A stretch of DNA of 46,193 nt from a virus (IMGVR_UViG_3300035698_000602:1-46193), one strand, 5' to 3'; positions 1,364 to 25,216 are shown, counted from the stretch's first letter. A program made the numbers and translations. Notes: generated by a model from the letters alone, not told the origin.

Positions 1364-1391
1364 TCATATTGGTCACGCGAGACCGTTTTGA
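1364..1391. promoter_or_regulatory. 28-bp palindrome family, site 1
   Basis: The core is GGTCACGCGAGACC followed by GTTTTGA, one of two family members with ACGCGA rather than ACGCGT at the centre (the other lies upstream of the capsid gene). It is in the noncoding left-end region, far from any start codon, comparable in position to T7's left replication promoter. Its function as phage promoter or operator is inferred from the multicopy pattern. Confidence 0.6.
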
Positions 1392-1499
1392 TACCCGTCG
1401 CGTCACCAAGGGTGGAATTAAATGATCACCATAAACGGCAGAATACTAGGCTTTATGTACCACAAGTGAAAAAAGATTGGCCTAAAGTGAAAATAATTG

Positions 1500-1528
1500 T
1501 TGACTGAGTTTGCACCTATCCCTATATT
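1500..1528 (+). promoter_or_regulatory. Sigma70-type early promoter
   Basis: TTGACT (1500-1505) and TATATT (1523-1528) are separated by exactly 17 bases. Two AAGTGAAAA blocks just upstream (about 1466 and 1486) give an UP-element-like A-rich stretch. This is the best host-type promoter in the noncoding region and is suitably placed to drive the early genes from 1778 on before the phage polymerase is made. Expected transcription start is near 1535. Confidence 0.6.
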
Positions 1529-1535
1529 CAATTTC

Positions 1536-1582
1536 AGTTACTCGACACCGCAAGCGCTTAAGGAAGCCCCGGACGAGTAACT
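1536..1582 (+). other. 5' stem-loop of the predicted early transcript
   Basis: AGTTACTCG (1536-1544) pairs perfectly with CGAGTAACT (1574-1582) around a 29-nt loop. It would lie at the very 5' end of RNA started from the promoter at 1500-1528. A stability or RNase-processing structure is a reasonable guess, and a small regulatory RNA is possible. Confidence 0.4.
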
Positions 1583-1717
1583 CAGCCCTGAAGTGCTAGC
1601 CGTTGTAATGACGTGAACATGGTAATAAGGTGGAAGTGTAGCGCAGGACACTTATAAAAAAAGCAACAGGGGGGCGAGCAGACGTTAAGGAGCTTGAACC
1701 AATTCCCTGAATATGTA

Positions 1718-1736
1718 CGGCACTATTCAAGTGCCG
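1718..1736 (+). other. Short hairpin upstream of the first early gene
   Basis: CGGCACT (1718-1724) and AGTGCCG (1730-1736) form a perfect 7-bp stem with loop ATTCA. There is no T-run after it. It lies in the leader of the first early gene and may be a processing site, as T7 early RNAs are cut at hairpins by RNase III. Confidence 0.4.
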
Positions 1737-1777
1737 CTGACGATTGCCAGTAAGCATGAAACATATGGGATTTGATT

Positions 1778-2281
1778 ATGACCAGCAAGAATGAAAACGC
1801 TGAGACCGACGCCAACGCAGACGACGCCACGCCTGATTTTGCGGATCATGCGGTACGTGTCAAAGCGTGCATCCTCAAGGCCAAGACGTACGGGGATAAG
1901 GCCATCAACATGGAAACAACGGCGGCGGTCACGCTGATTGAAGTCAAGGCGGGATTGCCTCACGGGACATATCAAGCATGGCTCAAGGCCAACGAAATCA
2001 ACGCTCGAACGGCTTCACGGCTTGTCGCTGAACATATCACGCCTAAGAAGCGCGAAGCGCGCCGCGCCAAGGCGAATGAAAAGGCCAAGACGGAGCGGGA
2101 AAAGGCCGAAGCCAAGACGGCAAAGGAAGCTGCTCAGGCCGAAGCCGCAAAGGGGGCGGCTGAAGGTAGGCCTGACGACGTACGCACCGAAGTGCTGCGG
2201 ATTGTCGGCCGTCTCGACGCTGAGAAGATCGCAGCGGTCTACGGCTTCTTGGTAGCTGAAGGGATGGCGAAGCGTGACTAA
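1778..2281 (+). CDS. DUF3102-like early protein with coiled coil
   Basis: This 167-aa product is the first gene of the early region. The ATG at 1778 is preferred over the TTG at 1772. Residues about 45-85 read LIEVKAGLPHGTYQAWL then RTASRLVAEH, which resembles the DUF3102 pattern (large chance of similarity by motif only; function of that family unknown, often on plasmids and phages). A Lys/Ala/Glu-rich segment from about 90 to 130 should form a charged coiled coil, followed by a short conserved-looking end. Its place directly behind the early promoter suggests a host-takeover or regulatory role, but that is inference. Confidence 0.7.
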   Translation: MTSKNENAETDANADDATPDFADHAVRVKACILKAKTYGDKAINMETTAAVTLIEVKAGLPHGTYQAWLKANEINARTASRLVAEHITPKKREARRAKANEKAKTEREKAEAKTAKEAAQAEAAKGAAEGRPDDVRTEVLRIVGRLDAEKIAAVYGFLVAEGMAKRD

Positions 2282-2337
2282 GCGAGCGCTTAACGGTGGC
2301 TCTCAGGTGACAATGGGAGCCACAATTAAGTCCTCGT

Positions 2338-2365
2338 TCAAATCGATCACGCGTGACCGTTATCA
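2338..2365. promoter_or_regulatory. 28-bp palindrome family, site 2
   Basis: Contains TCAAATCG on the left and TCACGCGTGACCG at and right of the centre, so here the left arm is the better preserved. It lies in the gap between 2281 and 2383 and ends 18 bases before the next start codon. Confidence 0.6.
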
Positions 2366-2382
2366 ACAGAAAGGAATACGCT

Positions 2383-2541
2383 ATGTCCTCACCATATCTC
2401 GACCTACCGCTTCGCACTGAAGCGGAGTATGCATTCGAACGTGCTAAGAAGCGTGAAGTGGCACGCAGACGGCGCGAGCTTCGGGAGTACAAGGCGTACC
2501 TGTCTCGTCTGGTGTTCAATCTCGAACGGTCTCACGCGTGA
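2383..2541 (+). CDS. Small Arg-rich early protein
   Basis: This encodes 52 aa with many Arg and Lys residues (KKREVARRRRELREYKAYL), predicted to be one basic helix. The ATG at 2383 follows an AAAGGA site. It heads a chain of four small genes joined by 4-8 base overlaps (2383, 2538, 2750, 2994), which argues for one translationally coupled operon under palindrome site 2. No family recognised. Nucleic acid binding is possible from charge alone. Confidence 0.6.
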   Translation: MSSPYLDLPLRTEAEYAFERAKKREVARRRRELREYKAYLSRLVFNLERSHA

Positions 2542-2753
2542 ATAGTTATAGACCGCTGTGCGAGTGCGAGACGAACCGCACATGCCACACCTGTCTCGAT
2601 AGCTGTGTAGACCGTCAGCGCGCTGACCGTAACACTTTCGGTCCAATGGTTCTGACCAGCGGCATGAACCGGGAGCAGGGCTCGGAGGATGCAATCAAGC
2701 GTAGGCCGTTACCAAATGGATCGGCGCGCACAAACTTAGGGCATTTCGCATGA
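2538..2753 (+). CDS. Small Cys-rich early protein
   Basis: This encodes 71 aa from a GTG start that overlaps the previous stop by 4 bases. The N-terminus has five cysteines within about 16 residues (CECETNRTCHTCLDSC), a spacing that could bind zinc. The rest is polar. No family recognised. The GTGA and ATGA junctions on both sides support it as a real coupled gene. Confidence 0.5.
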   Translation: MNSYRPLCECETNRTCHTCLDSCVDRQRADRNTFGPMVLTSGMNREQGSEDAIKRRPLPNGSARTNLGHFA

Positions 2754-3001
2754 AGATCGACCCGGCGACAATCCCGCGTACAAAGCCAACGCGGAAAGTA
2801 CACGTTGACAATTCACCCTATTCGCTGAACACCGGCAGGAAGTCTGGCGGTCGCGTCCACGGTCGCGCCGACGATGGCTCTGCCCTACCCATTACCGTTC
2901 ACTATTCCGACGGTCGTGATCCCGTTATTCGCCAGCAGGGACCACGGCAACGCGTCACATCAAAAGCGCTGGCGGACCTGAAGGAGAAATTCGATGGCTG
3001 A
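2750..3001 (+). CDS. Small hypothetical early protein
   Basis: This encodes 83 aa beginning MKIDPATIPRTKPTRKVHV. The ATG overlaps the previous stop (ATGA), and its own stop overlaps the next gene by 8 bases. It is basic and rich in Gly, Arg and Asp (GRKSGGRVHGRADDG). No family, membrane segment or signal recognised. Confidence 0.6.
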   Translation: MKIDPATIPRTKPTRKVHVDNSPYSLNTGRKSGGRVHGRADDGSALPITVHYSDGRDPVIRQQGPRQRVTSKALADLKEKFDG

Positions 3002-3329
3002 AGGAAAGTCAAAGTTTATTGACGACTCATACCGGGCTGAAGCCGCCCGGCGTTACATCAACCGTGTTGGGTCTTTTGATAGCGCCAAGTTAAAGTTTAT
3101 TGACGACTCATACCGGGCTGAAGCCGCCCGGCGTTACATCAACCGTGTCGGGTCTTTTGATAGCGCCAAGTTAAAGTTTATTGACGACTCATACCGGGCT
3201 GAAGCCGCCCGGCGTTACATCAACCGTGTCGGGTCTTTTGATAGCGCCAAGTTTCGGCTCTCTCAGGAGTTCCGCGACTACCGCTCGCGCTTCAAACCGT
3301 ACGCCAATCAGCCTTGGGATCACGCCTAA
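2994..3329 (+). CDS. Early protein made of three near-identical 27-residue repeats
   Basis: This encodes 111 aa. After a 6-residue start, a 27-residue unit (KFIDDSYRAEAARRYINRVG then SFDSAKL) occurs three times in a row, followed by a unique tail ending YANQPWDHA. Each unit looks helical and amphipathic (AEAARRYINRV). The unit is encoded by an exact 81-bp tandem repeat, so the expansion keeps frame. Function unknown. The repeats could form a small solenoid or simply be a recent slippage product tolerated in a flexible protein. Confidence 0.7.
   Translation: MAEGKSKFIDDSYRAEAARRYINRVGSFDSAKLKFIDDSYRAEAARRYINRVGSFDSAKLKFIDDSYRAEAARRYINRVGSFDSAKFRLSQEFRDYRSRFKPYANQPWDHA
3012..3254 (+). repeat. 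81-bp in-frame tandem repeat, three copies
   Basis: Units are 3012-3092, 3093-3173 and 3174-3254. Unit 1 differs from unit 2 by one base (T against C in the GTY GGG stretch). Units 2 and 3 are identical except that the last codon of unit 3 is TTT instead of TTA. Near-zero divergence means the duplication is very recent or kept uniform by recombination. Confidence 0.97.
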
Positions 3330-3332
3330 GAA

Positions 3333-3360
3333 CTAAAGCCGTCACGCGTGGCTCAGTCCA
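3333..3360. promoter_or_regulatory. 28-bp palindrome family, site 3a (weak)
   Basis: Only the core GTCACGCGTG is conserved and the arms are degraded. It lies directly before a much better copy at 3358-3385 in the same gap, so it may be a secondary binding site or a decayed duplicate. Confidence 0.4.
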
Positions 3361-3385
3361 AATCGGTCACGCGTGACTCTTTTCC
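3358..3385. promoter_or_regulatory. 28-bp palindrome family, site 3b
   Basis: The left half CCAAATCGGTCACGCGTGAC is nearly perfect and the right arm is decayed (TCTTTT). It ends 19 bases before the ATG of the 653-aa gene at 3405. Confidence 0.6.
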
Positions 3386-3404
3386 CTCAAATTAGGAGAC
3401 CGTT

Positions 3405-5366
3405 ATGTCCTACATGAAAACCTTTAACCTGGAGGAAGCTCCGCGTGAGTACGCAGAATGCCAATGGCTGTCGTGTTATGCGTTCGGTGACGCCAAGACC
3501 CAGAAGATCAGGGGTCTGAAAGCCGTCGAAGAACTTCGTCAGTATATGCAGCGTGGCATCACCCATATGCACAGTTGGTATTATCAGTCGGCGCAGGTCG
3601 TGCTGGATAATCCGTGGCTTCTTGACAAGCCAACCATGGAGCTGAACTTTCCGGTGTTCTTGCGACCTTGCCCGGTGACGCCGCGTCACGGCTTTGTTGA
3701 TAGCCGACTGGTCAACACGAAGCAGGAAGTTCTGGCGATAGCCGAGGAAGCCGTTGAAGCTGACCCGGACGCAGAGCTGCTGATCACGCCGTTCATTGCG
3801 TCGCGCAGTTCTGCGGTCTTAACGCCGACCACGTTCTCAATGGGTGAAGGTCACGATGGCGCCACCAGTGGTAAGTCTGTCACGACTTACGGGCCGGGGG
3901 TAGATCAAGACTGCCTTGACCAAATCAAGAAAGTCGCAACCATTACGGGTGACGACATTCCGTATGTGGAACTGGTCTCTGCCAATATGTACCCGGTTCA
4001 GGTCCGTGGGGGTCCGCAGCTTGAAAGCGTACAGGACTACGTGCCGCAGGACGTGACGGTCAAGGAGGTGTTGGTTGCGACTGCTGACACTGATCTGCTG
4101 GTCTGGGAGAAACAGATCGCAGAAGCGAAAGCCGGGACCGTCGTTTATGCTGACGGGCTGAGCCTTGCGAGTCACTTCTGCGTCCATGCGGTCGTCCACA
4201 AGGTTCCGGTATTCACGACATATCGGCCACGCGTGACCGATTTCGTCCTCAAGACTGACGTGCCTGTCTGGGGTGCGCGGGATTGGCGCAAGCTGGCGCG
4301 GTACATCACGGAGGCTGACCACGTGTTAGCTACCACCGGCTTGGACCAGTCGTGGGCGACGCTGGGAGTGTTCTCCCTCCATTGCGCCGGGACGCCAGCA
4401 CCAGCTACGGACCCGCAACTCCGTATGCTGGCCTACGGGGCCACGTCGGCCCTGAAGTGCATCGGGTCCACCTGTATGGGTGAGGCACGACATCTGAACG
4501 GCTCCTCGTATCCTGCGATGGACATAAAGCGTCAGCAGCTCGGTGAAGGGTCGTCAATCACGATGCAGCGTTCGGTCGCTGACCGGGGGCCTGATAGCCG
4601 CCAGAGCTACTATGAGCGTGGAAGCACGTTGAGCGTTGAAAGCTGGCGCTTGGTACTCCGCGCTACTGGCTCCATCTACCGCCATCGGGACTGGGGCTCG
4701 GGGTACGGCGGCGCAAAGTGGGCGTCGATCAACTCTGGGTGTCGCAAGATGGCTGACGCCATCAGCGCGTTCCGCAAGAGCCCCAGCCAGCGTGGATGGG
4801 CACGGGTGGTAACGGAGTGGAACCTTGTGATCCACAAGGAACACAACGGCAATGCTCCGGCGCTCAACAAGTTCAATGTTGGTAGGGTCGACATGACAGA
4901 CCTCTCACTGTTCCCACTCGCGGGGATGGTGCGTATGTCCGCAAAAGGACGTGCCATTGTGATGAACGGTCCGACGGGTTCGCTCGTTAAGAGTGGCGCC
5001 TCACAACTGTGCATCCCAGCACGGCGCTCGAAGTCGGCATCACGCGTCCGCCATATCAAGACGATGGGGATCATGAACGCAGACGGATACCTTCGGTTGT
5101 ACGTCTGCGACGAGAGTATCCTGAAGTTCCACGTCGAGGACGAGCGTGTCCGCGTGAAGCTGGAAGCGGAGTACGAACTCCACCCAGTCTTGACGGTCCA
5201 CGAGCGTGTGGATAACACGATCATGACGCAGTCGGTGGACACACTCGCCAAAGTACTGTCAGTTCCGGCAGTCACGGGGCGTGGGTCTATCGCGATCAAC
5301 CTGACGGTGATGGGGCAGTCGTTCACCCTTACTGCAAGCAACCACGAGGTCATGGGCAAGCTGTAA
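3405..5366 (+). CDS. Putative PEP-utiliser/ATP-grasp-like phosphotransfer protein
   Basis: This encodes 653 aa, behind TAGGAG and palindrome site 3b. Residues 244-269 contain GLSLASHFCVHAVVHKVPVF, which aligns with the mobile (swivelling) domain signature of PEP synthase, pyruvate phosphate dikinase and rifampicin phosphotransferase (G-x-x-x-SHxAIxAR-x-x-x-IP). H257 matches the phosphorylated histidine. Upstream, residues about 80-155 (LNFPVFLRPCPVTPRHGF, EADPDAELLITPF, GHDGATSG) recall the end of an ATP-grasp nucleotide-binding domain. The C-terminal 380 residues (GYGGAKWASI, many Arg/Lys) match nothing I know. It lacks the length and full domain set of a metabolic PEP synthase. A phosphotransferase acting on a host target is the inference. 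The family assignment rests on motif reading only. Confidence 0.55.
   Translation: MSYMKTFNLEEAPREYAECQWLSCYAFGDAKTQKIRGLKAVEELRQYMQRGITHMHSWYYQSAQVVLDNPWLLDKPTMELNFPVFLRPCPVTPRHGFVDSRLVNTKQEVLAIAEEAVEADPDAELLITPFIASRSSAVLTPTTFSMGEGHDGATSGKSVTTYGPGVDQDCLDQIKKVATITGDDIPYVELVSANMYPVQVRGGPQLESVQDYVPQDVTVKEVLVATADTDLLVWEKQIAEAKAGTVVYADGLSLASHFCVHAVVHKVPVFTTYRPRVTDFVLKTDVPVWGARDWRKLARYITEADHVLATTGLDQSWATLGVFSLHCAGTPAPATDPQLRMLAYGATSALKCIGSTCMGEARHLNGSSYPAMDIKRQQLGEGSSITMQRSVADRGPDSRQSYYERGSTLSVESWRLVLRATGSIYRHRDWGSGYGGAKWASINSGCRKMADAISAFRKSPSQRGWARVVTEWNLVIHKEHNGNAPALNKFNVGRVDMTDLSLFPLAGMVRMSAKGRAIVMNGPTGSLVKSGASQLCIPARRSKSASRVRHIKTMGIMNADGYLRLYVCDESILKFHVEDERVRVKLEAEYELHPVLTVHERVDNTIMTQSVDTLAKVLSVPAVTGRGSIAINLTVMGQSFTLTASNHEVMGKL
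4218..4245. promoter_or_regulatory. 28-bp palindrome family, site 4 (inside a gene)
   Basis: Contains CACGCGTGACCGATTT with part of the left arm (ATCGG). It lies within the 653-aa gene and encodes RPRVTDF. The same 15 bases occur in the integrase gene. Confidence 0.5.
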
Positions 5367-5390
5367 AAGAGCCACGCGTGACCGATTTGA
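5363..5390. promoter_or_regulatory. 28-bp palindrome family, site 5
   Basis: The right half CACGCGTGACCGATTTGA is perfect and the left arm is poor. It starts at the stop codon of the 653-aa gene and ends 27 bases before the phosphatase start. Confidence 0.6.
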
Positions 5391-5417
5391 CCTCAACCTC
5401 TTAAATGGAGAGACAAG

Positions 5418-6530
5418 ATGGCTACCAAGAGACAGCGTAAGAACAACCGTTCCGCAACAAACCCGGAGAGCAAGGGAAAGCAGAAGAAGGCCAAGGCCAA
5501 GACGACCGCCAAGTCTACGCGCTATGACACTGGCTGTCACTCCCACGACTGCCAGTTGGTAGCGGAAGCCAACGGTGGTAAGACCAAGATATATGCGGGC
5601 AGTCGCTGTGGTATCAGAGACGCCGTGTCCTCGGGTTGGATCATTCCCACCCTTGCGGTAGACCTGAGCGGTGGCCCCGTGTACGGCTTCAGGAAGGCGT
5701 TTCCCGTATTCACGAACGAGGCGGCGATGAAACTCCTCCCGCTTGCGCTCCAACGGGACGCTGACGCGGGAGAGGTGGCGATCATGAAAATGGACTGGCC
5801 GGATGGGAGTATCCCGCTCGGGCTTGACGCGGCATGGTGGAAGCTCATGGCGAACACGATCATGTCCACTGAAGGCGACATCGCCATCTGCTGCATGGGC
5901 GGACACGGACGGACTGGCACGTTCCTGTCCATCATATTTGCTCACAGCGGCGCCATGAAGAACGAGGACGGTGATCCCGTCAAGTTCATGCGCGAGTCAT
6001 ACTGTGACGCCGCAGTCGAGACCAAGTCTCAGGTCTCGTATATCGAGCGCATGACAGGGAGGATCGTCGGTGAAGCTGCCTCTGACGCTAGTCTGGTTTC
6101 ATACGGCTCCTACTACGGGGAGCGCAATCGCGTCTCGGAGAAACTTACACCCGTGGGCGGCAAAAGCAAAGGCTGGGCTCCGCCAGCAGCGAATGAAGGA
6201 ACGAGCCCCGGCCAAGCTGAGTACGATCTTATGCAGGAGGGCAACAGCACCTCTGGTGGCATACCTGTCAGCAACACCCAAGAGGCGTACATGGCTCAAT
6301 TGGAGCAGGAGAAACTCACCGACCGCGTGAATGAAGCGAGCAACGAGGCAATGGTCACGATGAACGCGGCTGGTGACATCGTGCTGACGGCGGACCGGGA
6401 TGATCACACCTTCATGATGGACGGGGTGCGGTATCGCAGTGAGGAAGACTTCATCGCGAACGAGGACCATCACAACTACCTGCGGGACGAGGGGCTTCTC
6501 CTCCCGTGGGCTGAGGACGGGGGGGCGTGA
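5418..6530 (+). CDS. Protein phosphatase-like protein (Cys-dependent PTP/DSP)
   Basis: This encodes 370 aa. Residues 159-167 read CMGGHGRTG, the CX5R-T-G P-loop of tyrosine and dual-specificity phosphatases, with C159 as nucleophile and R165 binding phosphate. The usual preceding His is Cys here. W127-P128-D129 forms a WPD loop, which supplies the general acid in this superfamily, 30 residues before the P-loop as expected. The first 35 residues are Lys/Arg-rich, suggesting nucleic acid or acidic-target binding, and the C-terminal 170 residues are polar and unassigned. The substrate could be phosphoprotein, phosphoinositide or RNA 5' triphosphate. It lies directly after the phosphotransfer-like gene and before the integrase. 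Confidence 0.7.
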   Translation: MATKRQRKNNRSATNPESKGKQKKAKAKTTAKSTRYDTGCHSHDCQLVAEANGGKTKIYAGSRCGIRDAVSSGWIIPTLAVDLSGGPVYGFRKAFPVFTNEAAMKLLPLALQRDADAGEVAIMKMDWPDGSIPLGLDAAWWKLMANTIMSTEGDIAICCMGGHGRTGTFLSIIFAHSGAMKNEDGDPVKFMRESYCDAAVETKSQVSYIERMTGRIVGEAASDASLVSYGSYYGERNRVSEKLTPVGGKSKGWAPPAANEGTSPGQAEYDLMQEGNSTSGGIPVSNTQEAYMAQLEQEKLTDRVNEASNEAMVTMNAAGDIVLTADRDDHTFMMDGVRYRSEEDFIANEDHHNYLRDEGLLLPWAEDGGA

Positions 6531-6533
6531 GCG

Positions 6534-7367
6534 ATGAATACGCTTAAAGAGGCAATCCACGCAACGGAGACTGTCGAGTGGGCTGGGTCTGCGTGGGGCA
6601 AGACTGCGGCTCGGTACGCGTGGGACCTTCAGGTGTTCACCAGTGACGACTACAACAACGTCCTACTGGCGGACATCAGTACACAGAACTTGGACCGCTG
6701 GCTCGCTGAGTACCCGAACGCCTCACCGGCCACGCAGAACCGGCGCCTCGCGGCAATCTCCAAGTGTTACACTGTCGCGAAGCAGCGGGGATACGATGGC
6801 CGGGTGCCATACTTCCCACGTAAGAAGGAGCCACCCCATCGCGTCCGGTGGGTCTCACGGCAGGAGGAGTTCCGTATGTGTAACCTCCTCAGGCTCACGT
6901 CAAACGAAATGCCCGCGATCTTCATACTCCTCGTGGACACTGGGATGCGGTACGGTGAGCTGAAACGGCTACGCGTGACCGATTTGAACTGGGACACCGG
7001 AATGCTGACGATCCGTGAGGCCAAGGGCGGTAAGCCCCGCTCAGTTCCAATGACCGAACGCGTTAAAAACATAATGAATGTGGTGAATGACCCCAAACCA
7101 CTACATTCGCGGAACCTAGCCGCATTCCCTCGTGCTTGGAAGAAGGCGCGGAGTGCTATGGGGCTGCGGAAGGACATGGCGTTCGTGCCTCACGTCCTCC
7201 GGCACACCTACGCATCGCGGCTGGTCTCAGCCGGGGTGCCACTCAAGGTAATACAAGAGCTGCTCGGACATGCCGACATCAAGATGACGCTGCGCTACGC
7301 TCATCTTGCCCCTTCCAACTTCGACGTGGCGCTCAACGCTCTGGAGGATTTCAACAATGGCGATTAA
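6534..7367 (+). CDS. int: Tyrosine site-specific recombinase (integrase)
   Basis: This encodes 277 aa, close to XerC/D size. An N-terminal SAM-like DNA-binding region (1-100) is followed by the catalytic domain with all expected residues: R139 (GMRYGEL), a Lys in the beta-hairpin (K164 or K167, AKGGK), H220-x-x-R223 (HVLRH), H246 (LLGHAD) and the nucleophile Y255 (LRYAHL). It would catalyse integration or resolution at a pair of sites. It is placed just upstream of RNA polymerase, as in integrase-carrying marine T7-like phages. The gene contains palindrome site 6 and one copy of the 25-bp repeat (codons 186-194). No excisionase or repressor is recognised nearby. Confidence 0.95.
   Translation: MNTLKEAIHATETVEWAGSAWGKTAARYAWDLQVFTSDDYNNVLLADISTQNLDRWLAEYPNASPATQNRRLAAISKCYTVAKQRGYDGRVPYFPRKKEPPHRVRWVSRQEEFRMCNLLRLTSNEMPAIFILLVDTGMRYGELKRLRVTDLNWDTGMLTIREAKGGKPRSVPMTERVKNIMNVVNDPKPLHSRNLAAFPRAWKKARSAMGLRKDMAFVPHVLRHTYASRLVSAGVPLKVIQELLGHADIKMTLRYAHLAPSNFDVALNALEDFNNGD
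6960..6987. promoter_or_regulatory. 28-bp palindrome family, site 6 (inside integrase)
   Basis: Contains ACGCGTGACCGATTTGA in codons for LRVTDLN of the integrase. The left arm is weak. It is 370 bases before the next gene start, so it could act on the small genes downstream or on int itself. Confidence 0.5.
7090..7114. repeat. 25-bp repeat, copy 2, inside the integrase gene
   Basis: It matches 191-215 at 24 of 25 bases in the same orientation, with the single change at 7102. It encodes DPKPLHSRN between the catalytic Lys and the HxxR box of the integrase. Strand exchange here would cut the integrase gene in two. Confidence 0.6.
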
Positions 7368-8277: not shown

Positions 8278-8288
8278 AGGAGAATAAG

Positions 8289-10748
8289 ATGGACAACCGC
8301 GCACGACAGAGAGACCTTGAGATCACTTCGGTTCAGATCGGAGTCGATAGGTACAATGCTGGCCTGACCACGTCTCGTGACAATGGGACGGAGTGGGATG
8401 GTGGCGCTGGTGCCGAGTTGATTGCCCGCATGATGATCAAGATGATCCCGGCGGTAGCGGAACACCAGAAGTCTGCACGCAAATACATTGTGTCCGCGCA
8501 GACTTCTGGTCGTAGGCTGAGCGGTTGGGAGTTACCGATGGCGCTCAGTGACCCGGCAGCGATGGCGTACATCGCCATTCGGACCGTACTGACCCCGGAC
8601 ACCCGTGGGCTCGTCGGTCAGAAGCACGCGACAGCGCGTCGCATCGGTCACGTCGCCAATCAGGAGCTACGCTGGAAGGAACTCCGCTCCGCAGAGCGGG
8701 AACGTGCCGCAGCGGCTCCTCCCAACCGGCTCGCCTACATGAAGAAGTCCGTCAAGAAGATCAACCCCAAGTCGCTCGCCAAGTGGCTGCGACGGATGGA
8801 CGATCTGACGACGACTGTCTGGACCTCGGAACAAACACTTCGCCTCGGTCTGGAATTGATGGGGCTGCTCGCTCAGTCTTGTGACGAGTTCGTCACCGTT
8901 GAGAAGACCATCACCCATGCTGGACAACGTAGCGCAGTCCGCACGGTGACGACAGTCGTCCTCCGCCCTGAAGTCCTCGCCGGACTAGATGATCAGTATC
9001 AGCGTCGTGCCTTATCCAGTCCGTGGATCAGGCCGATGGTGTGTCCTCCTGATCCGTGGGTCCGCATGGAGGATGGGTACGTCGGCGGATTTCTGTCTAC
9101 CCCGACCACGCTGCTGAAGGAAGGCGTCGGACGGGGGGCTGACCCTGACGGGACCTCCTCGGTCCCTTCGGTGTGTCTTGCTGCGATCAACGCTGTAGCT
9201 GGGACAGCGTGGCGCATCAATGACGGTGTGCGTTCCATAGCCACCATCGCTGTTGATAAGGGGGTGGAGGAGGTACTGCCAGTGACCCCGGTTAAACCTC
9301 TACCCCCCAAGTTGAGCCCTGACGTCTGGGCCACCATGGCTCCGAAGGCTCGCGTCAAGTGGAGCGGAAGCATTCGCGAGATACACGACTCCAACAATCG
9401 AGAGGCAGCGAAGCGGGGTGCGCTCGCTCGTGTCCTCCTGATTGCTCACGACTTCAAGGACGAGGAGGCAATCTACTTTCCCCACGCGTTCGACTTCCGG
9501 GGCCGTATGTATCCCCTCCCGCAAGACCTACACCCTCAGGCCACTGACTTCGGTAAGGCACTGCTCACGTTCGCTGACGCTGTCCCCCTCGGGCCGACGG
9601 GGCTGACGTGGCTGGTGTACCATGTGGCGGGGACGTATGGCATGGATAAGATGTCACGGGATGACCAGCGGGCGTGGCTCATGGAGCATCTGGACGAGAT
9701 CGCCAGCGTGGCGCAAGACCCGTTCGGTGCTGGCTTTGAGTTCTGGTGTGCGGCTGACTCTCCGTGGCAGTTCCTCGCAGCGGCTCGGGAGATCGAGGCG
9801 GCGTTCGCGTACGCTGATGGCCCGACTGCGTACCCGTCGTCCCTGCCTGTCGCAGTGGACGGCTCGTGTAACGGCATCCAGCACCTCTCCGCGATGGGGC
9901 TGGACCCAGTGGGCGCCGAAGCTACGAACCTGACGTGTGACCCGGAACGCCGGGACATCTACCAGATCGTGGCGGACAAGGTGGACGAGCATGTGAAACT
10001 CAAGGCACACCCTGACTTCAAACATCACGACAATCACGTGGTGGCGCAAGGCTGGGTGGGCAAGGTCACTCGCAAGACTGTGAAGCGCGGGGTGATGACA
10101 ACACCCTACGGCGTGACCCGGATCGGGATGCGTGATCAGTTGATGGCGGAGAAGTTCACCACTGATGTCAAGGAGGCGAACTACCTCCGCGACCTGATGT
10201 TCGACGCCATCGCAGATACGGTGGTCAAGGGCCGGGAGATCATGGACTGGTTGCAGGACAACGTGACCATCATCGCTGCGAACGACCGACCTATCTCATG
10301 GACGGCACCCTCGGGCTTCCGGGTGTTCCAGCATTACCTGACCCCCACACGCAAGCGGCTCTACACGCTGATCGGATCAACCTACCTGTGGGAACTCACA
10401 CCCTCGTCAGCAATCAACAAGGGAAAGATGAAGACGTCCATTGCACCGAACGTGATTCACTCGTTCGACGCGGCGCATATGGTCTTAACAATTGAGGAGG
10501 CGCACAAGGTCGGGATCAACTCGTTCTCGATGATACACGACAGCTTCGGCTGTCATGCGGCGCACATGGAGCAGTTCTTGTTCATCACGCGTAATGAGTT
10601 CGTTAAGATTTACCAAGAGGACTGGTTCAGTACCCTGCAATGGGAGTTCCAGCAGTCAGCGGGCGTGGGCGTACCGCTGATCTCACCACCCGAACGAGGC
10701 GACTTCGACATCACTGAAGTCAACGACGCCGAGTTCTTCTTCGCCTAA
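8289..10748 (+). CDS. T7-type single-subunit DNA-directed RNA polymerase
   Basis: This encodes 819 aa (T7 gp1 is 883). ATG 8289 is taken because GAGGAG lies just upstream. An earlier in-frame ATG at 8241 overlaps the previous gene. Conserved blocks match T7 gp1: FDFRGRMYPLPQDLHPQ, D524 in DGSCNGIQHLSAM (T7 D537), K599 and Y607 in RKTVKRGVMTTPYGV (T7 K631 and Y639, same spacing) and D751 in MIHDSFGCHA (T7 D812). It ends AEFFFA, the equivalent of T7's C-terminal FAFA foot. It transcribes the middle and late genes from phage promoters and defines the phage as T7-like. The specificity loop region is divergent, so T7 promoters are not expected. Confidence 0.98.
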   Translation: MDNRARQRDLEITSVQIGVDRYNAGLTTSRDNGTEWDGGAGAELIARMMIKMIPAVAEHQKSARKYIVSAQTSGRRLSGWELPMALSDPAAMAYIAIRTVLTPDTRGLVGQKHATARRIGHVANQELRWKELRSAERERAAAAPPNRLAYMKKSVKKINPKSLAKWLRRMDDLTTTVWTSEQTLRLGLELMGLLAQSCDEFVTVEKTITHAGQRSAVRTVTTVVLRPEVLAGLDDQYQRRALSSPWIRPMVCPPDPWVRMEDGYVGGFLSTPTTLLKEGVGRGADPDGTSSVPSVCLAAINAVAGTAWRINDGVRSIATIAVDKGVEEVLPVTPVKPLPPKLSPDVWATMAPKARVKWSGSIREIHDSNNREAAKRGALARVLLIAHDFKDEEAIYFPHAFDFRGRMYPLPQDLHPQATDFGKALLTFADAVPLGPTGLTWLVYHVAGTYGMDKMSRDDQRAWLMEHLDEIASVAQDPFGAGFEFWCAADSPWQFLAAAREIEAAFAYADGPTAYPSSLPVAVDGSCNGIQHLSAMGLDPVGAEATNLTCDPERRDIYQIVADKVDEHVKLKAHPDFKHHDNHVVAQGWVGKVTRKTVKRGVMTTPYGVTRIGMRDQLMAEKFTTDVKEANYLRDLMFDAIADTVVKGREIMDWLQDNVTIIAANDRPISWTAPSGFRVFQHYLTPTRKRLYTLIGSTYLWELTPSSAINKGKMKTSIAPNVIHSFDAAHMVLTIEEAHKVGINSFSMIHDSFGCHAAHMEQFLFITRNEFVKIYQEDWFSTLQWEFQQSAGVGVPLISPPERGDFDITEVNDAEFFFA

Positions 10749-10772
10749 AAGGGTCACGCGTGACCGATTTGA
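10745..10772. promoter_or_regulatory. 28-bp palindrome family, site 7
   Basis: GGTCACGCGTGACCGATTTGA is a complete right half and centre. The site begins at the stop of the RNA polymerase gene and ends 18 bases before the SSB start, where T7 has class II promoters. Confidence 0.65.
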
Positions 10773-10790
10773 AACTATCAGGAGAGACGA

Positions 10791-11874: not shown

Positions 11875-11891
11875 CCCTATAGGAGAGAGAC

Positions 11892-14571: not shown

Positions 14572-14592
14572 CATCAACACAGGAGAACTAGC

Positions 14593-15367: not shown

Positions 15368-17234
15368 ACTGATCGCAGACATCGAAGCTGATGGTCTGCT
15401 GCATACAATCACGATGCTCCACCAGATCAGCATCATCGACCTCAAGCATCCGGGGATGGTGGAGAGCTACAACGATCACAACCCTCACGCCGCTGGCAAC
15501 CTGAACGAAGGGTTGAAGCGGATGGTTGAGGCAACCCTGCTGATCATGCATAACGGTATCGGGTATGATCTTCCAGCCATCAACATCGTGTACGGCATGG
15601 ACCTCGGCTGGGAGAAAGTCCTCGACACACTGGTACTCAGTCGGCTTGGCAATCCTCCACGTCTTGGGGGACACTCGCTGGAGTCATGGGTGCCCCGGCT
15701 GGACATGGACGTTTCCAAAATCCAGAACGAGGACTGGTCCAAGTGGACGTGGCTCATGGAGGAGCGGTGCGGTGCGGATTGCAAGATCACCTTGGGTGTG
15801 TACAACCGGCTCAAGGGGATGGTTGACCTTATGCCTGTGGCGGTGGAGATTGAACACGCCACGGCTGAGGAGACCCGCAAGACTATCGAACGGGGGTTCA
15901 TGCTGGACCTCGCACACGCTCACACACTGCTGAGTGAACTGCAAGCCGAACAGGAGGCACAGCTTGATGACTTCATGACCCGCTTCCCACCTATTCTCGT
16001 ACCAGTTAAATCAAACGAGGTCGAGAAGGTGCTTAAGGTTATCAACAAGAACCACCCACTCAAGGGCATACTTGATCCGGGGGTCTCGTTCTGCCCCGTC
16101 AAAGTCCAAGAGTTCAACCCCGGCAGTGAGCTCCAGATAGCCCTGAGGCTGACGCGTAAGTACGGGTGGAAACCAACGGTGTTCACGAACACGGGGATCG
16201 CGTCGGTGACTGAGGAGATACTTCGGGAGCTGCCGTACGAGGAAGCCGCGGCTATCGCTGACTACCTCAAGACCCACAAGATGGTGGAGCAGATCAACGC
16301 CGCGCCCAAGAAGAATGGGCAGGGCGGAGGGTGGCTCCATCACGTACACGCTACCGGACTCGTGCATCCCTTCCTCAATCCGTTGAAGACTATCACGGGA
16401 CGGCTGTCATGCAGTGCGCCGAACTTGCAGCAGGTATCGAAAGACCCCCGTATGCGTCGAGCGTGGATCGCCCGTAAGGGTTATGTCCTCCTCGGGAACG
16501 ATGCGGAGGGGCTAGAACTACGCTGCCTCGGCCACTACCTTGAGCCGCACGACGGTGGTGCGTACATCAGGATGTTGCTCGAAGGTAACAAGTCCATAGG
16601 CACTGACGTTCACAGTGTCGTCATGCGATTGATCGGGTTCTACGATAGGGACCAGACAAAGCGGGTTGAGTATGGCTGGCTCTACGGGGCTGGTGATGCG
16701 AAGCTCGGACGCATCGCGATGCAGGACGCGCAGAAGGCCAAGAAGGAAATCAACTATGAGCATCTTGGGATCACAGTCAAGGGCTCGCGTCGTCCTGCCG
16801 ACTCCGTTGTTGGCAAGGCGATCCGTGAAGCTCTACAGGAAGGACTGGATGGACTTGACTTTCTTGCGAACGACGTCAAACGGCTATCCAAGTCGAACGG
16901 TAAACTCCGTGGTCTTGACGGTCGCACGTTGTGGTCGCGTAGTGATCACTCTGCACTCAACCTACTACTACAGTCAGCGGGCGCGATCCTCGTTAAGAAA
17001 GCTTGGACGCTGGTGCCGGGACTGCTGGACGAGGTTGGTCTGGTAGAGGGTGACGACTACGGCTGCGTCATCCAAGTGCATGACGAGTTCCAGTATGAAG
17101 TGCGACCCCACCTCGTAGACGTCGTGGGACCTGCGATCTCGAAAGCCATCGAGCTGGCGGGACAACAACTGAACTTCCGCTGCCCGTTGGCAGGGGACTA
17201 TTCGTCTGGCCCGTCGTGGGCGGACACTCACTAG
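15345..17234 (+). CDS. DNA polymerase, family A with 3'-5' exonuclease (T7 gp5-like)
   Basis: This encodes 629 aa (T7 gp5 is 704). ATG 15345 with GAGGGAG is chosen because the exonuclease motif begins at residue 12. The longer open frame from 15195 has no site. The exonuclease has D12-I-E14, HNGIGYDLPA and DCKITLGVY. The polymerase domain has TGRLSCSAPNLQQV, motif A at D386 (DAEGLELRCL), motif B (K...YGWLYGAGDAKLG) and motif C H579-D580-E581. The region corresponding to T7's thioredoxin-binding loop is shorter by roughly 30-35 residues. It replicates the phage genome with the gp4-like helicase. Confidence 0.96.
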   Translation: MAESKPIELIADIEADGLLHTITMLHQISIIDLKHPGMVESYNDHNPHAAGNLNEGLKRMVEATLLIMHNGIGYDLPAINIVYGMDLGWEKVLDTLVLSRLGNPPRLGGHSLESWVPRLDMDVSKIQNEDWSKWTWLMEERCGADCKITLGVYNRLKGMVDLMPVAVEIEHATAEETRKTIERGFMLDLAHAHTLLSELQAEQEAQLDDFMTRFPPILVPVKSNEVEKVLKVINKNHPLKGILDPGVSFCPVKVQEFNPGSELQIALRLTRKYGWKPTVFTNTGIASVTEEILRELPYEEAAAIADYLKTHKMVEQINAAPKKNGQGGGWLHHVHATGLVHPFLNPLKTITGRLSCSAPNLQQVSKDPRMRRAWIARKGYVLLGNDAEGLELRCLGHYLEPHDGGAYIRMLLEGNKSIGTDVHSVVMRLIGFYDRDQTKRVEYGWLYGAGDAKLGRIAMQDAQKAKKEINYEHLGITVKGSRRPADSVVGKAIREALQEGLDGLDFLANDVKRLSKSNGKLRGLDGRTLWSRSDHSALNLLLQSAGAILVKKAWTLVPGLLDEVGLVEGDDYGCVIQVHDEFQYEVRPHLVDVVGPAISKAIELAGQQLNFRCPLAGDYSSGPSWADTH

Positions 17235-17245
17235 AGGAGAGAACT

Positions 17246-19858: not shown

Positions 19859-19883
19859 ACGTCTGACTATACGCATATCTAAT

Positions 19884-19928
19884 GCCCCGGAGAATGAGGT
19901 TAACCCCTTGTTTTCCGGGGCTTTTTTT
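19884..19928 (+). terminator. Intrinsic terminator closing the replication block
   Basis: GCCCCGGA (19884-19891) pairs with TCCGGGGC (19914-19921) and is followed by seven T. The pairing can extend by two A-T pairs inside. It separates early and middle genes from the structural operon and would limit read-through by host-type polymerase. Confidence 0.85.
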
Positions 19929-19975
19929 GTATCACCACATTTGCTAAGGACCACCCATCGTCGAGGAGGACGATT

Positions 19976-20832: not shown

Positions 20833-20840
20833 GAACTCAC

Positions 20841-21113
20841 ATGGGCACCGTATTAAAAACACTGACCGGGGGTTTACTCGGAGGCTCTGATAAGAAGTCC
20901 AGCCCCGCTCCGCAATCTAAAGCGGCGGTTGAGTCCCCCCGATCAGACATCGGTGCGAACACGGACGCACAGGCAGCAGAAGCCAAGCGCAACGCTGGCG
21001 CCGCTCGCCGTAAGCGCGTTCAGGCACAGACGCAGACGGGTAAAGCCACCGGGCAGGGGCTCCGCACCCAGCTATCCTCAGCTCCCACCCGTTCAGGGGT
21101 GTCCATCCAGTAG
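20841..21113 (+). CDS. gp7.3-like small virion protein, paralogue 2
   Basis: This encodes 90 aa, starting 8 bases after paralogue 1. The N-terminus (MGTVLKTLTGGLLGGSDKK) is hydrophobic and Gly-rich, the middle is disordered, and the tail GAARRKRVQAQTQTGKATG ends RSGVSIQ. It is the paralogue closest to T7 gp7.3 in length (99 aa) and ending. Confidence 0.75.
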   Translation: MGTVLKTLTGGLLGGSDKKSSPAPQSKAAVESPRSDIGANTDAQAAEAKRNAGAARRKRVQAQTQTGKATGQGLRTQLSSAPTRSGVSIQ

Positions 21114-21122
21114 GAGACCCCC

Positions 21123-21365
21123 ATGGGTAAAGATACATTTTCACGACTCGTCGATCCGCTGGACCTCTTTGGTCTGGGTGAAGACGACGAGCCCACAGCT
21201 CCGCCCGTCCCCGAACCTGTCGCACGTCCCGACGAGGTTGACCAGTCACAAGCCGCGTTTGAACGGGGCAAGGCAGCGGGTGCCGCACGCCGTACGCGCA
21301 TTACGGGCCAGACCAATCTCGGGAAGGCTACGACCACTCGCGTCGGGCTATCCCTGAAAGACTAG
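21123..21365 (+). CDS. gp7.3-like small virion protein, paralogue 3
   Basis: This encodes 80 aa beginning MGKDTFSRLVDPLDLFGLG. An acidic, Pro-rich middle (EDDEPTAPPVPEP) leads to AGAARRTRITGQTNLGKAT and a short VGLSLKD end. The GKAT and AARR boxes align with paralogue 2. It starts 9 bases after paralogue 2 and is followed by the portal 8 bases later, so the cluster is one transcript. Confidence 0.7.
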   Translation: MGKDTFSRLVDPLDLFGLGEDDEPTAPPVPEPVARPDEVDQSQAAFERGKAAGAARRTRITGQTNLGKATTTRVGLSLKD

Positions 21366-21373
21366 AGGACATC

Positions 21374-22912
21374 ATGGCTGCTGATACAACCCTTAAAGCG
21401 ATCTATGATCGACGCGCTTCTGACCGGACACAGTTCCTTCAGCGTGCCAGACATAACGCCCTCTTGACGCTCCCGTCACTCATGCCCCTTGAGGGACAGA
21501 CGGGCACGTCACACCTAATTGAGCCCTATCAGGGCATTGGCTCAGCGGGCACGGTCCACCTGTCCTCACGGGTCACCATTGGCCTATTGCCAGCCGGTCG
21601 GCCCTACATGCGGCTCGACCTGCCCCCACAGGTGAAGCTACAGAACAACGGCGAAGTCCCCGTCGAAATGCAGAAGCAGCTTTCGATGGTTGAGCAACTG
21701 ATCCAGAGCGAAGTCGAAAGTTCCGGCTGGCGCACGGTGACCTTGCAGTCTATTCAGCAGTTGATCGTCGCCGGTAACGTCGTCGAGTATATGCAACCCA
21801 ATAACACCATCCGTCTTTATCGCCTCGACCAGTACACTGTCCGCAGGGATCACCTCGGGCGACTGCTTGAGCTGATCATCATGGAGAAGTTCCAACGCGA
21901 CGAAGCCCCCCTCGATACCCAAGCCCCTTCGAAAGAAACTGTGGTGGACATGGACGAGAAGGTCGAGCTGTACACGATGATCAAGTTGGTCCGTGAAGGC
22001 GAGAGAGAGTTTTACCAGCGGACCCAGCAGTGGGGAAGCGGTGATGCGACTGGCGGCGTGACGAACTGGGAACTTGAAGATATGCCCTACATCGCCCTGC
22101 GCTGGGCGGCAACTCCCGGCGAAGATTACGGGCGTGGCAAGGTTGAAGAACACATCGCGGACCTCCGGTCCCTTGATGGTCTCGACAAAGCTGCGCTTGA
22201 AATGGCGGGCATGGGCTCACGTAACTTTGTGATGGTTCGACCCGGCGCCAACGCGTCGAGTATCAAGAACCGTCTTGTCCGGGCTATCAATGGTGACATC
22301 GTCGTTGGTGATCCAGACACCGTGGAACTGAAGTCGTTCGTCAACTCGGCGGGCTATCAGATCACCGCGACACAAGCAGACACCCTCCGTGCGTCACTCG
22401 CTCGGGCCTTCCTACTGTCCTCAAGTGGACAACGGGACGCCGAACGGGTCACAGCCACAGAGATCGAACGCGACATCCAAGAGCTTGAAGCAGCCCTTGG
22501 CGGAACTTTCAGTGCCTTGGCGCAGGAAATGATGGAGCGGCGTACGCAACTCCTCATGACCAGCATGAAGGCCCAAGAGAAGTTGCCACCATTCCCCAGC
22601 GGGGCACTCGTGCCCACCATCCTGACTGGACTTGAAGCTCTCAGCCGCGAACGTGACGTGAGTCGCGCAATGCAGGCAGCTCAGGTCACTCAGGCGTTCG
22701 GCGACGGTGCCACTGACGTTGTAAAAACAGACGTCATTCTTGGGCGAGCCTTCATCGGTCTCGGCTTCCCTGACGCAGTCAACTCCCCACAGGAGACGGC
22801 GGCAATCAGGAAGCAGAAACAAGACGCGGCAATGCAGCAGTCTGTAATGGATAAGGTAGTACCGGGCGTGGCGAAGGAAGTCACCCGGCAAGCAGGAGAC
22901 GAAGGTAAGTAA
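21374..22912 (+). CDS. Portal (head-tail connector) protein, T7 gp8-like
   Basis: This encodes 512 aa (T7 gp8 is 536). The sequence has the conserved start (LKAIYDRRASDRTQFLQRAR, LPSLMP) and blocks such as GSAGTVHLSSRVTIGLLPAG and LRWAATPGEDYGRGKVEEHI, which are typical of T7-type portals. It forms the dodecameric ring through which DNA is packaged and ejected and on which the internal core and tail assemble. It is followed by a TAATG overlap with the next gene. Confidence 0.95.
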   Translation: MAADTTLKAIYDRRASDRTQFLQRARHNALLTLPSLMPLEGQTGTSHLIEPYQGIGSAGTVHLSSRVTIGLLPAGRPYMRLDLPPQVKLQNNGEVPVEMQKQLSMVEQLIQSEVESSGWRTVTLQSIQQLIVAGNVVEYMQPNNTIRLYRLDQYTVRRDHLGRLLELIIMEKFQRDEAPLDTQAPSKETVVDMDEKVELYTMIKLVREGEREFYQRTQQWGSGDATGGVTNWELEDMPYIALRWAATPGEDYGRGKVEEHIADLRSLDGLDKAALEMAGMGSRNFVMVRPGANASSIKNRLVRAINGDIVVGDPDTVELKSFVNSAGYQITATQADTLRASLARAFLLSSSGQRDAERVTATEIERDIQELEAALGGTFSALAQEMMERRTQLLMTSMKAQEKLPPFPSGALVPTILTGLEALSRERDVSRAMQAAQVTQAFGDGATDVVKTDVILGRAFIGLGFPDAVNSPQETAAIRKQKQDAAMQQSVMDKVVPGVAKEVTRQAGDEGK

Positions 22913-23130
22913 TGGCAGAATTTGGTAGTGGATGGGACTCGAAACCATTCAATGAGGATAAGCCATTCGGGCACGGGACGGTCGTGGGTGGTGATAATAT
23001 CACGCACTCCGCCGTCCGCTGGACAGCGATCAAAGCCATGAAGGCTGGCACCGCTACCCCGGAGCAAACACTGTTGGTTCACGACGCCGACATCTGGATG
23101 CAACACGCACTTGAGCAGAGAGAGGAATAA
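22912..23130 (+). CDS. Small hypothetical protein between portal and scaffold
   Basis: This encodes 72 aa starting MAEFGSGWDSKPFNEDKPFG. The start overlaps the portal stop (TAATG). The N-terminal half is Gly/Asp-rich and the rest helical (AVRWTAIKAMKAGTATPEQ). Probably coupled to portal expression. No family recognised. Confidence 0.65.
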   Translation: MAEFGSGWDSKPFNEDKPFGHGTVVGGDNITHSAVRWTAIKAMKAGTATPEQTLLVHDADIWMQHALEQREE

Positions 23131-23134
23131 TACC

Positions 23135-23992
23135 ATGGCCGATGTAATCGTTCAGAACACGCAGGGAGGACAGTCCGCTGACGTACAAGTATCACTCGCC
23201 GAACAGGAAGCCGCAACTGCCGCAGCCGCAGCCGCAGGGCTCCCTTCCGCCACCAACTTGGGGGTCACCGACGCCCAGTTCGCGAAGTACTACAACCCCG
23301 CAACCGGATACAACTGGCAGGCCCATGCGACAGAAGCGTCCTTCCGCGCCGACAAGGGCGCAGCCGATGCGCCGACTGCCGCTGCCCCCAAAACAGCGGG
23401 TGATGTGGTTACGCCGATTGAACCGGCGACTGACGCCGCGGCGGAGAACGCTATTTCTAAAGCTGGTCTGGACTTCGGTACGCTCGAAGATCAGGTGGTC
23501 AACACTGGTACGATTGATGACGCTTCGTTCGCCGCGCTTGAAGGCATCGGCATCCCGAAGGAAGTCGTAGCTGATTACCTCGTGTCCATCACGGACCGTG
23601 CCGCAGCTCAGGTCGCATCAGTCATTGACGCCTTCGGTGGCGACGACAACTTGAACAAGGTGAAAGCCTACGCTCAGGAGAAGTACACCGACGCTGAAAT
23701 GCGGGAACTTGATGGTAAGCTCGCGGACCCCCTGACGTATCAGGCGACCGTGGACATGCTCCGTCATGGCGCTGGCATCCTGCCGGGCAGCACTGGCACC
23801 ACCGTCACTGCCCCGAACGCTTTCGGCGGTGCTGCTGATGGCGTCGCGGGCTACGCGAACGATGCTGAAATGCAGGTCGATATGCGGAACCCTCTCTACA
23901 AAACTGATCCGGTCTTCCGGCAGGGCGTAGTCCAGAAGGTCGCCGCGTCCACATACGGCAACAACCCCCGCGCTCACTCGGGCGGTCTGTAA
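23135..23992 (+). CDS. Capsid scaffolding protein (T7 gp9-like)
   Basis: This encodes 285 aa (T7 gp9 is 307) from ATG 23135. The composition is Ala/Asp/Thr-rich with an Ala-run (EAATAAAAAAG), an acidic centre and a helical middle (DDNLNKVKAYAQEKYTDAEM). The end, NPLYKTDPVFRQGVVQKVA, matches the conserved C-terminal helix of T7-type scaffolds that binds capsid protein. Position between portal and capsid fits. It guides procapsid assembly and leaves before packaging is finished. Confidence 0.88.
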   Translation: MADVIVQNTQGGQSADVQVSLAEQEAATAAAAAAGLPSATNLGVTDAQFAKYYNPATGYNWQAHATEASFRADKGAADAPTAAAPKTAGDVVTPIEPATDAAAENAISKAGLDFGTLEDQVVNTGTIDDASFAALEGIGIPKEVVADYLVSITDRAAAQVASVIDAFGGDDNLNKVKAYAQEKYTDAEMRELDGKLADPLTYQATVDMLRHGAGILPGSTGTTVTAPNAFGGAADGVAGYANDAEMQVDMRNPLYKTDPVFRQGVVQKVAASTYGNNPRAHSGGL

Positions 23993-24685
23993 GTGGCGGC
24001 GAAAGCCGCACCGAAGAAAAAGAATACGGCAGGTAAAAACCAGCCAGCGTACCTACTCCACGACCCGTTCCCGACTCATGTGATCCAGCGTGACTGGACT
24101 GAGATCGACGCGTTGAACGACTCCCTCCGTGACCAGCTCTGGCGCAAGCGTGCGCTGGACCCCACGGGGTTGTACCGCTCCAACGCCGCAGGGACGTGGC
24201 ACTCCGACGATACGCTCCTTGAGACCTCCGGGCCTGAAGGCGCTAAGCTCAAGAGTATGTTTGCCCAAGCTATTATGCAGTGGGCGAGCGCTCAAGGGCT
24301 GAAGAAAGATGCGTCTGTTCAGATGAAGATGTCCGCGTGGGCAATGATCTATTCTGACAGGGGCTACGCGACGGTCCACACCCACCCAAACTGTCACGTC
24401 AGCGCCGTCTACTACGTGGATGATACGACTGAGGACACAGAAAAAACAATGGCAACGGGTGCCTCAGTGAAAGCCGGAAGTATCGAGTTCGTCAACCCCA
24501 CCCCTAATGGTCTACAGACCTCGGTGTTGAACCTCCATCCGTCCTTCATCATGCCCTTTAAGCGGGGCCGGATGCTGGTGTTCCCATCAGCACTCGCTCA
24601 CTTCGTTCACCCGATCAGCGGATCAGGCGAGCGTATTTCCATTGCGTGTAACGCATCATTCTATCCTCCGAAAGTAAACACATGA
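23993..24685 (+). CDS. 2OG-Fe(II) oxygenase-like protein (TIGR02466 type)
   Basis: This encodes 230 aa from a GTG that directly follows the scaffold stop. The first 20 residues are Lys/Ala-rich. The double-stranded beta-helix core shows H129-x-H131 (ATVHTHPNCHVSAVYYVDD), LHPSFIMPFKRGRMLVFPSA and H203 (ALAHFVHPI) with R214 in GERISIACN. This matches the putative 2OG-Fe(II) oxygenase family found in phages and bacteria, where two histidines, an acidic or third histidine and an arginine bind iron and 2-oxoglutarate. An oxygenase inserted between scaffold and capsid is unusual. It may hydroxylate a capsid protein or a host target. Confidence 0.85.
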   Translation: MAAKAAPKKKNTAGKNQPAYLLHDPFPTHVIQRDWTEIDALNDSLRDQLWRKRALDPTGLYRSNAAGTWHSDDTLLETSGPEGAKLKSMFAQAIMQWASAQGLKKDASVQMKMSAWAMIYSDRGYATVHTHPNCHVSAVYYVDDTTEDTEKTMATGASVKAGSIEFVNPTPNGLQTSVLNLHPSFIMPFKRGRMLVFPSALAHFVHPISGSGERISIACNASFYPPKVNT

Positions 24686-25188
24686 CCCTCACCAACAACG
24701 TAAAGCTCGCCGTCGAACAGTCGAATGGTGTCGTTCCTGAAGCGGCTCTGGTTGAGCCCGGCGCGAACCTTGTCGAGTCTGTCCCGGTCACCATGACCGC
24801 CGTCACCGACGCTCCTGACTGGACCTACAGCGCGACTGCCGAAGACAATGGCACCGCAGGTAACCTCGACGGACAGCCCGGCCTGACTTACTCGGGACCG
24901 GCGACCAACCACTTCCGTGTTCAGGTCAAGAACTTTGACGTCATTGAACATGCGATCACGCCCCCGGAAGCAACGGACAAGGCTGTCATGGCTCTGTTCA
25001 AGAACTCCGAGATTATCGACTTCGCGGACGAGGGCTTCAGCGCCGTCGCGTCCGAAGCCGCTGTCGAATTTAACGTGGACACTGTGGCCGTTCTCGCGCC
25101 CAACGATGTCCTCCGCGTCGGCGTGGTCTTCACTGGCGAAGTTAACGGTGACCTCGATTTGGCACCGGGCGAAATCTCTATCACGTAA
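24682..25188 (+). CDS. Possible capsid decoration or head protein
   Basis: This encodes 168 aa with an ATGA overlap to the oxygenase. It is acidic, Val/Thr/Ala-rich and alternates in a beta-strand-like way (ESVPVTMTAVTDAPDWTYSA, VEFNVDTVAVLAPNDVLRV, GVVFTGEVNGDLDLAPGEI), which suits a beta-sandwich or Ig-like decoration protein. No firm family. Location directly before the capsid gene supports a virion role. Confidence 0.55.
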   Translation: MTLTNNVKLAVEQSNGVVPEAALVEPGANLVESVPVTMTAVTDAPDWTYSATAEDNGTAGNLDGQPGLTYSGPATNHFRVQVKNFDVIEHAITPPEATDKAVMALFKNSEIIDFADEGFSAVASEAAVEFNVDTVAVLAPNDVLRVGVVFTGEVNGDLDLAPGEISIT

Positions 25189-25216
25189 TCAAATCAGTCA
25201 CGCGAGACCGTTTTCA
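25189..25216. promoter_or_regulatory. 28-bp palindrome family, site 8 (capsid leader)
   Basis: Both arms are present: TCAAATCAGTC on the left and GACCGTTTTCA on the right, around ACGCGA. It shares the ACGCGA centre and CCGTTTT right arm with site 1. It begins 1 base after the stop of the gene at 24682 and lies in the leader of the capsid gene, where T7 has its strong late promoter. Confidence 0.65.

Follow-up and report, generated by a model that had tools for sequence, protein, structure and literature searches.

The question raised by this locus is what a short palindrome that recurs at nine places in a phage genome is for, and whether it marks promoters, operators or something else. The window, by which we mean the whole stretch of viral DNA analysed (46,193 nucleotides; IMGVR_UViG_3300035698_000602), carries an identical 127 bp at both ends (1–127 = 46067–46193) and is a complete genome, circularly closed or circularly permuted, with a unique length of 46,066 bp. 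Its main genes all lie on the + strand and comprise an early region, a tyrosine integrase (6534–7367, +; PF00589, 4.9e-28), a T7-type single-subunit RNA polymerase (8289–10748, +), a Gp2.5-like ssDNA-binding protein (SSB), a primase-helicase, a DNA polymerase, an exonuclease, portal, scaffold, major capsid and tail proteins, and a gene at 43612–45825 that, judging by its location and by homologues in relatives, was taken as the terminase large subunit (terL); non-coding DNA makes up 3.7% of the genome. The phage is a temperate-looking, integrase-carrying relative of T7. Its RNA polymerase shares only about 30% identity with the enzyme of any annotated phage, with Pasto and LUZ100 (T7-like phages with an integrase) among the best matches, and no close DNA relatives were found among annotated phages. 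The nearest relatives are uncultivated: G001 (IMGVR 3300035698_000419; 52% polymerase and 79% capsid identity), whose contig is without the early region, then G002, G003 and G007 (44–45% polymerase identity), followed by G008, G009, G014 and G005. The capsid's only cellular match, in Marivibrio halodurans (46%), hints at an alphaproteobacterial host.

All nine sites named by an earlier sequence-only reading are present where it placed them, and the collection of matches with a position weight matrix that it had proposed gave scores of 26.9–41.5 at these sites and 14.5 for the next best elsewhere. Eight strong sites and a weak one at 3333 fit AAA-N3-GTCACGCGWGAC-N3-TTT far above chance. The degenerate pattern AAA-N3-GTCACGCGNGAC-N3-TTT, with up to three mismatches, matched the nine sites and nothing else in the genome (18 strand-matches against 0.13 expected from shuffles), and a de novo search for palindromic families returned one family of eight members in the window, where shuffles gave at most three. 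That the motif is real is beyond reasonable doubt. The sites are 24–28 bp long and are centred on ACGCGT, itself palindromic. Their description as palindromes stands as regards symmetry, the information profile being mirrored so that strong positions match on both arms, but the symmetry is imperfect, with 8–10 of 14 positions pairing in the strong sites and 6 of 14 at 3333. Since positions 6 and 23 are non-complementary in seven of the eight strong sites, each site can be regarded as a strong arm (GACCGATTTGA) joined to a weak arm.

Seven of the nine sites fall within non-coding DNA (binomial p ~1e-9). Site 1 (1364–1391) lies about 110 bp ahead of a sigma-70-like promoter (1500–1528), within a long non-coding stretch of the early region, and three copies of a 12-bp tandem repeat, CGCCACGCCTAT, stand just ahead of it (1322–1357). 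Site 2 (2338–2365) occupies the gap directly after a gene for a DUF3102-like protein, 17 nt before the ATG at 2383. The weak, degenerate site 3 (3333–3360) is 25 bp upstream of site 4 (3358–3385), which is in a gap 19 nt before the ATG at 3405; the protein encoded at 2994–3329 contains a 27-residue repeat, the product of three tandem 81-bp units in frame (3006–3253). Site 5 (4218–4245) lies inside the coding sequence of orf653, site 6 (5363–5390) overlaps the orf653 stop codon 27 nt before the ATG at 5418, and site 7 (6960–6987) lies inside the integrase coding sequence. Site 8 (10745–10772) overlaps the stop codon of the RNA polymerase gene, 18 nt before the ATG of the SSB gene, and site 9 (25189–25216) begins immediately behind a stop codon, with a G/C hairpin and then the capsid gene downstream of it. 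Five gap sites had been said to end 18–27 bases before a start codon; four do so, at 17–27 nt (2338, 3358, 5363 and 10745), whereas site 9 ends 161 nt ahead of the capsid gene.

The G/C hairpin, GGGGGGCACCTCAAGCCCCCC, is at 25219–25246, between site 9 and the capsid gene, is without a T run and is the same in G001 (L132). Beyond it, the leader of the capsid gene (25250–25378) is conserved in about 15 relatives (L109–L132) as AAGGCTTCA ... GTCAACCAANGATAACC with a variable stretch between; Rfam gave no match in the window, and the leader is a possible structured RNA or translation element.

The earlier statement that two sites are embedded in genes was borne out, sites 5 and 7 being wholly coding. 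When each was compared with 100,000 synonymous recodings generated with phage codon usage and scored leave-one-out, none scored as high as the observed sequence; both sites are fixed at the DNA level and are no coincidence of protein sequence, the synonymous codons at site 5 being chosen for the site. Homologues of the integrase and of orf653 align without gaps across the sites, which indicates that these evolved in place and were not inserted, and a mobile palindromic repeat (REP/RPE-like) inserted into older sequence was rejected on the same ground. The orf653 gene (no family match) adjoins one for a tyrosine-phosphatase-like protein (PTP), the two spanning 3405–6530, and the pair was found only in G009 among the relatives, with a phosphatase fragment in G001. 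Residues ~244–270 of orf653 look like the swivelling domain of PEP-using enzymes, and orf653 and the phosphatase may form a phosphorylation module used in host takeover.

In G001 the same architecture recurs three times, always in a gap: the polymerase gene is preceded by AAACGTACCACACGTGGTACCTTT, the primase gene is followed by AAAAGTACCACACGTAGCACATAT, and the capsid gene is preceded by AAAGGTGCCACGCGTAGCACTTTT, which is orthologous to site 9 and has the same hairpin after it. Between the window and G001 the spacing, the outer AAA/TTT and the CACRCGT core stay the same, whereas both arms differ, and in this comparison with one close relative the two arms change together, as expected of a co-evolving two-fold-symmetric protein–DNA contact. 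A dimeric operator should be a symmetric site whose arms change together between relatives, and this is the pattern found in the window and G001; the symmetric information on both arms and their joint change support the dimeric DNA-binding protein suggested earlier. The palindromes are quite probably protein-binding DNA operators rather than promoters, RNA elements or recombination sites. At a probability of about 60%, we read the nine sites as the dispersed operators of a putative phage-encoded dimeric regulator, most likely a lysogeny repressor, and infer both the protein and its dimeric state from the DNA. No recognisable repressor was found among the phage proteins scanned. A DUF3102-like protein (167 aa; 1778–2281, +), encoded between sites 1 and 2 and identified by a sub-threshold Pfam match, is a weak candidate for the binder of the palindromes; its model is helical, with a possible HTH and a long coiled coil at low confidence (pLDDT 55), and no phage homologue of it was found.

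An unrelated dispersed palindrome, GTGTCCCANTNGGGACA, occurs in G009, at 23187 and 33996 in gaps and at 26845 and 28693 inside genes (gene-strand coordinates), and dispersed palindromes with other sequences may recur in the clade. Apart from this smaller family, the palindromic-family scan of the other genomes examined found no comparable short dispersed operator-like family. It returned none in G002, G003 or G007, two of which (G002 and G007) carry an integrase, and the palindrome family is therefore not general to the clade. In RHEph21 a palindrome occurred in four copies, and in S2B there was a GC-rich family in coding sequence, close to the background given by its own shuffles. Searches of IMG/VR with a single polymerase sequence or the exact motif pattern found no phage with the same motif.

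Dispersed symmetric sites, some of them within genes, are also typical of KorB and ParB proteins, and the palindrome might be bound by a protein, of the phage or of the host, that does something other than repress: one that acts at centromere-like or DNA-compacting sites (ParB/KorB type), or a host global regulator. We regard this as unlikely: the scan of the proteins showed no ParA/ParB-like gene, and the genome encodes an integrase, the near-exclusive placement in gaps ahead of ribosome-binding sites points to gene expression, and the changed arms of G001 speak against a conserved host protein, unless the hosts differ.

It is rather improbable that the phage RNA polymerase uses the palindrome as its promoter, whether bidirectional or with an overlapping operator, as its placement had suggested to the sequence-only reading. 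The palindrome fills most operon-leading gaps, including the polymerase–SSB gap where relatives carry promoter-like motifs, its left half (AAA-N3-TCAC) loosely resembles the T7-type upstream half, and no other repeated motif in the genome that is palindromic or intergenic is larger. However, single-subunit polymerases need promoters that face in the direction of the genes, and the polarity of the palindromes is random although the main genes share one strand. When all sites were aligned in gene direction, 0.33 of random orientations did as well; the best orientation flips three of the eight strong sites (4218 being nearly neutral) to give the strong and weak arms, and this mixed-orientation fit had p 0.017 for the eight strong sites and 0.075 with site 3333 included. 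Moreover, the centre is GC-rich, the flank columns show no conserved +1 region or start sequence, and most of the palindromes lie upstream of the polymerase gene. No sigma-70-like promoter was found overlapping any palindromic site.

The promoter claim is further undermined by a separate directional motif, CACYACATTYGC, which occupies the promoter positions common to the relatives. It occurs in three exact copies, all on the + strand (200, 7099 and 19933), against 0.02 expected, a flattering figure in that the consensus was drawn from the same three copies. The corresponding promoter candidates are CAAAC-CACCACATTCGC (195–212, +) in the first gap after terL, CAAAC-CACTACATTCGC (7094–7111, +) inside the integrase gene, and CACCACATTTGC (19925–19944, +) directly after the intrinsic terminator of the lysis region. 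Directional promoter-like motifs of the relatives are all on the gene strand, namely the CCCCTAAGCC type in G002 (n=5), CCCCCTCTGCC in G007 (n=5), GGGGGGTAAAGCCCCCTATGGG in G008 (n=5), GACCAATAGACTGGGACTATCG in G014 (n=3) and CCCTCTYGCCAA in G001 (n=2), and they recur after terL, inside the integrase gene or before the polymerase gene, in the polymerase–SSB gap, and immediately downstream of the terminator that separates the lysis gene from the portal. The candidate at 19925 is in the same place as the motifs of G001, G002, G007, G008 and G014, and that in the integrase gene shares its codon position with the motifs of G002 and G007 (CACYACATTYGC at alignment column 194, the other two at column 193). 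These integrase-internal motifs lie at 16291–16316 in G002 and 40654–40679 in G007 (gene-strand coordinates), and the motif sequence differs among the window, G002 and G007.

The proposed comparison with the promoters of related phages thus gave a divided answer: the palindrome shares the polymerase–SSB gap, where the window has no CACYACATTYGC, while the integrase, early-start and lysis–portal positions hold CACYACATTYGC. Both kinds of element, palindromes and a promoter-like motif, are also present in G001, at different places. A T7-type promoter should have a single orientation relative to the genes, which the palindromes do not have, whereas CACYACATTYGC is on the + strand in three of three copies; from synteny, CACYACATTYGC is likely the phage polymerase promoter. 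The repeat CCCCAAACCACYACATTCGCGGAA has two copies in promoter positions and a partial third. The palindromic promoter was at first favoured by synteny as the main reading, and was weakened once the CCCCAAACCACYACATTCGCGGAA repeat was recognised in promoter positions.

It is very improbable that the palindromes are tyrosine-recombinase core sites (Xer/dif-like 11-6-11 or integrase attachment sites): of the earlier Xer/dif suggestion the arm geometry stands, the 28-bp length and arms fitting a recombinase core in a phage that encodes an integrase, but dif-type sites are single per replicon and have a non-palindromic overlap, and nine copies with the same palindromic overlap ACGCGT in one replicon would permit deletion or inversion of essential genes. 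Hardly credible, too, are RNA hairpins that would serve in the processing of mRNA or the control of translation (like T7 RNase III sites), which hairpin-like sequence between genes and just ahead of ribosome-binding sites might suggest, given that the pairing analysis showed no compensatory changes, 31% of cells unpaired and fewer pairs than shuffles, that only one of eight sites folded better than all shuffles, and that the kept feature is the sequence and not the pairing.

If the palindromes are the operators of a dimeric regulator, their placement bears on how such a protein would act. The 17–27 nt between sites 2338, 3358, 5363 and 10745 and the next start codon hold the ribosome-binding site. 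A protein bound at these four sites cannot act on a downstream promoter, and would most simply serve to halt polymerases that are already on their way through the operon. With no promoter that fits at the four pre-start sites or the two in-gene ones, we infer an elongation block, in which the regulator on the palindromes would halt elongating polymerases in the manner of a stoperator. Early transcription (sigma-70-like promoter at 1500–1528) would be the target of the six sites from 2338 to 6960, the middle genes that of site 10745, and the capsid and late genes that of site 25189. This stoperator-like mechanism is conceivable, although we would not presume it. Equally tentative is the fuller proposal of a symmetric, orientation-free system in which one dimeric repressor would silence the prophage, its roadblocks stopping two polymerases, that of the host in the early operon and the phage's single-subunit enzyme in the middle and late operons, with operator arms and repressor changing together between relatives.

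The stoperators of cluster A mycobacteriophages (L5, Bxb1, TipsytheTRex) are present in many genome-wide copies, mostly in short intergenic spaces, with a consensus that differs between related phages, and are proposed to silence the prophage at elongation; they are asymmetric 13-mers, bound by a monomer and oriented with transcription, and reversal abolishes their function (PMC9283540, PMC6550527). The palindromes likewise occupy short intergenic spaces across the genome (seven of nine in the 3.7% that is non-coding), but they are 24–28 bp long rather than 13 bp, two-fold symmetric, and of mixed polarity, in a T7-like phage. As they have neither the asymmetry nor the orientation of stoperators, they could be said to work like stoperators, not to belong among them. 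With the lambda OR/OL operators they share two-fold symmetry and the combination of one consensus and one weaker half-site per operator, whereas they are longer, spread over 24 kb and not at recognisable promoters, and no lambda-like repressor was found.

MarR-based lysogeny control has been proposed for the temperate T7-like phages LUZ100 and Pasto, which like the present phage are integrase-carrying Autographiviridae, and in which a DNA-binding regulator is thought to control the polymerase (PMC10134795); in contrast, no MarR gene was recognised in the window, and the site is dispersed and of another sequence. Pasto (L009) has a six-copy motif, ATGGTCACTCTTAGGTGACT, at 392, 695, 1298, 8684, 11855 and 12367, on both strands and apparently outside annotated genes, which is separate from a directional GATTACCCCGCACACTAGGA motif and is possibly the MarR operator. 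Promoters of T7-like phages (LUZ100 AATTACCACACAG and others) resemble the palindromes in standing downstream of the polymerase gene and upstream of the capsid gene, but they are asymmetric and one-way where the palindromes are symmetric, and their equivalent in the window appears to be CACYACATTYGC.

For how integrase-carrying T7-like phages silence a powerful polymerase and their operons, the published proposal that we found is MarR-based (PMC10134795). The exact, dispersed and symmetric sites described here are a direct bait for finding the regulator, and they make it possible to test whether an operator can halt a single-subunit RNA polymerase. They also illustrate that in a T7-like phage the intergenic motif with the most copies need not be the promoter, an assumption that is easily made in annotation.
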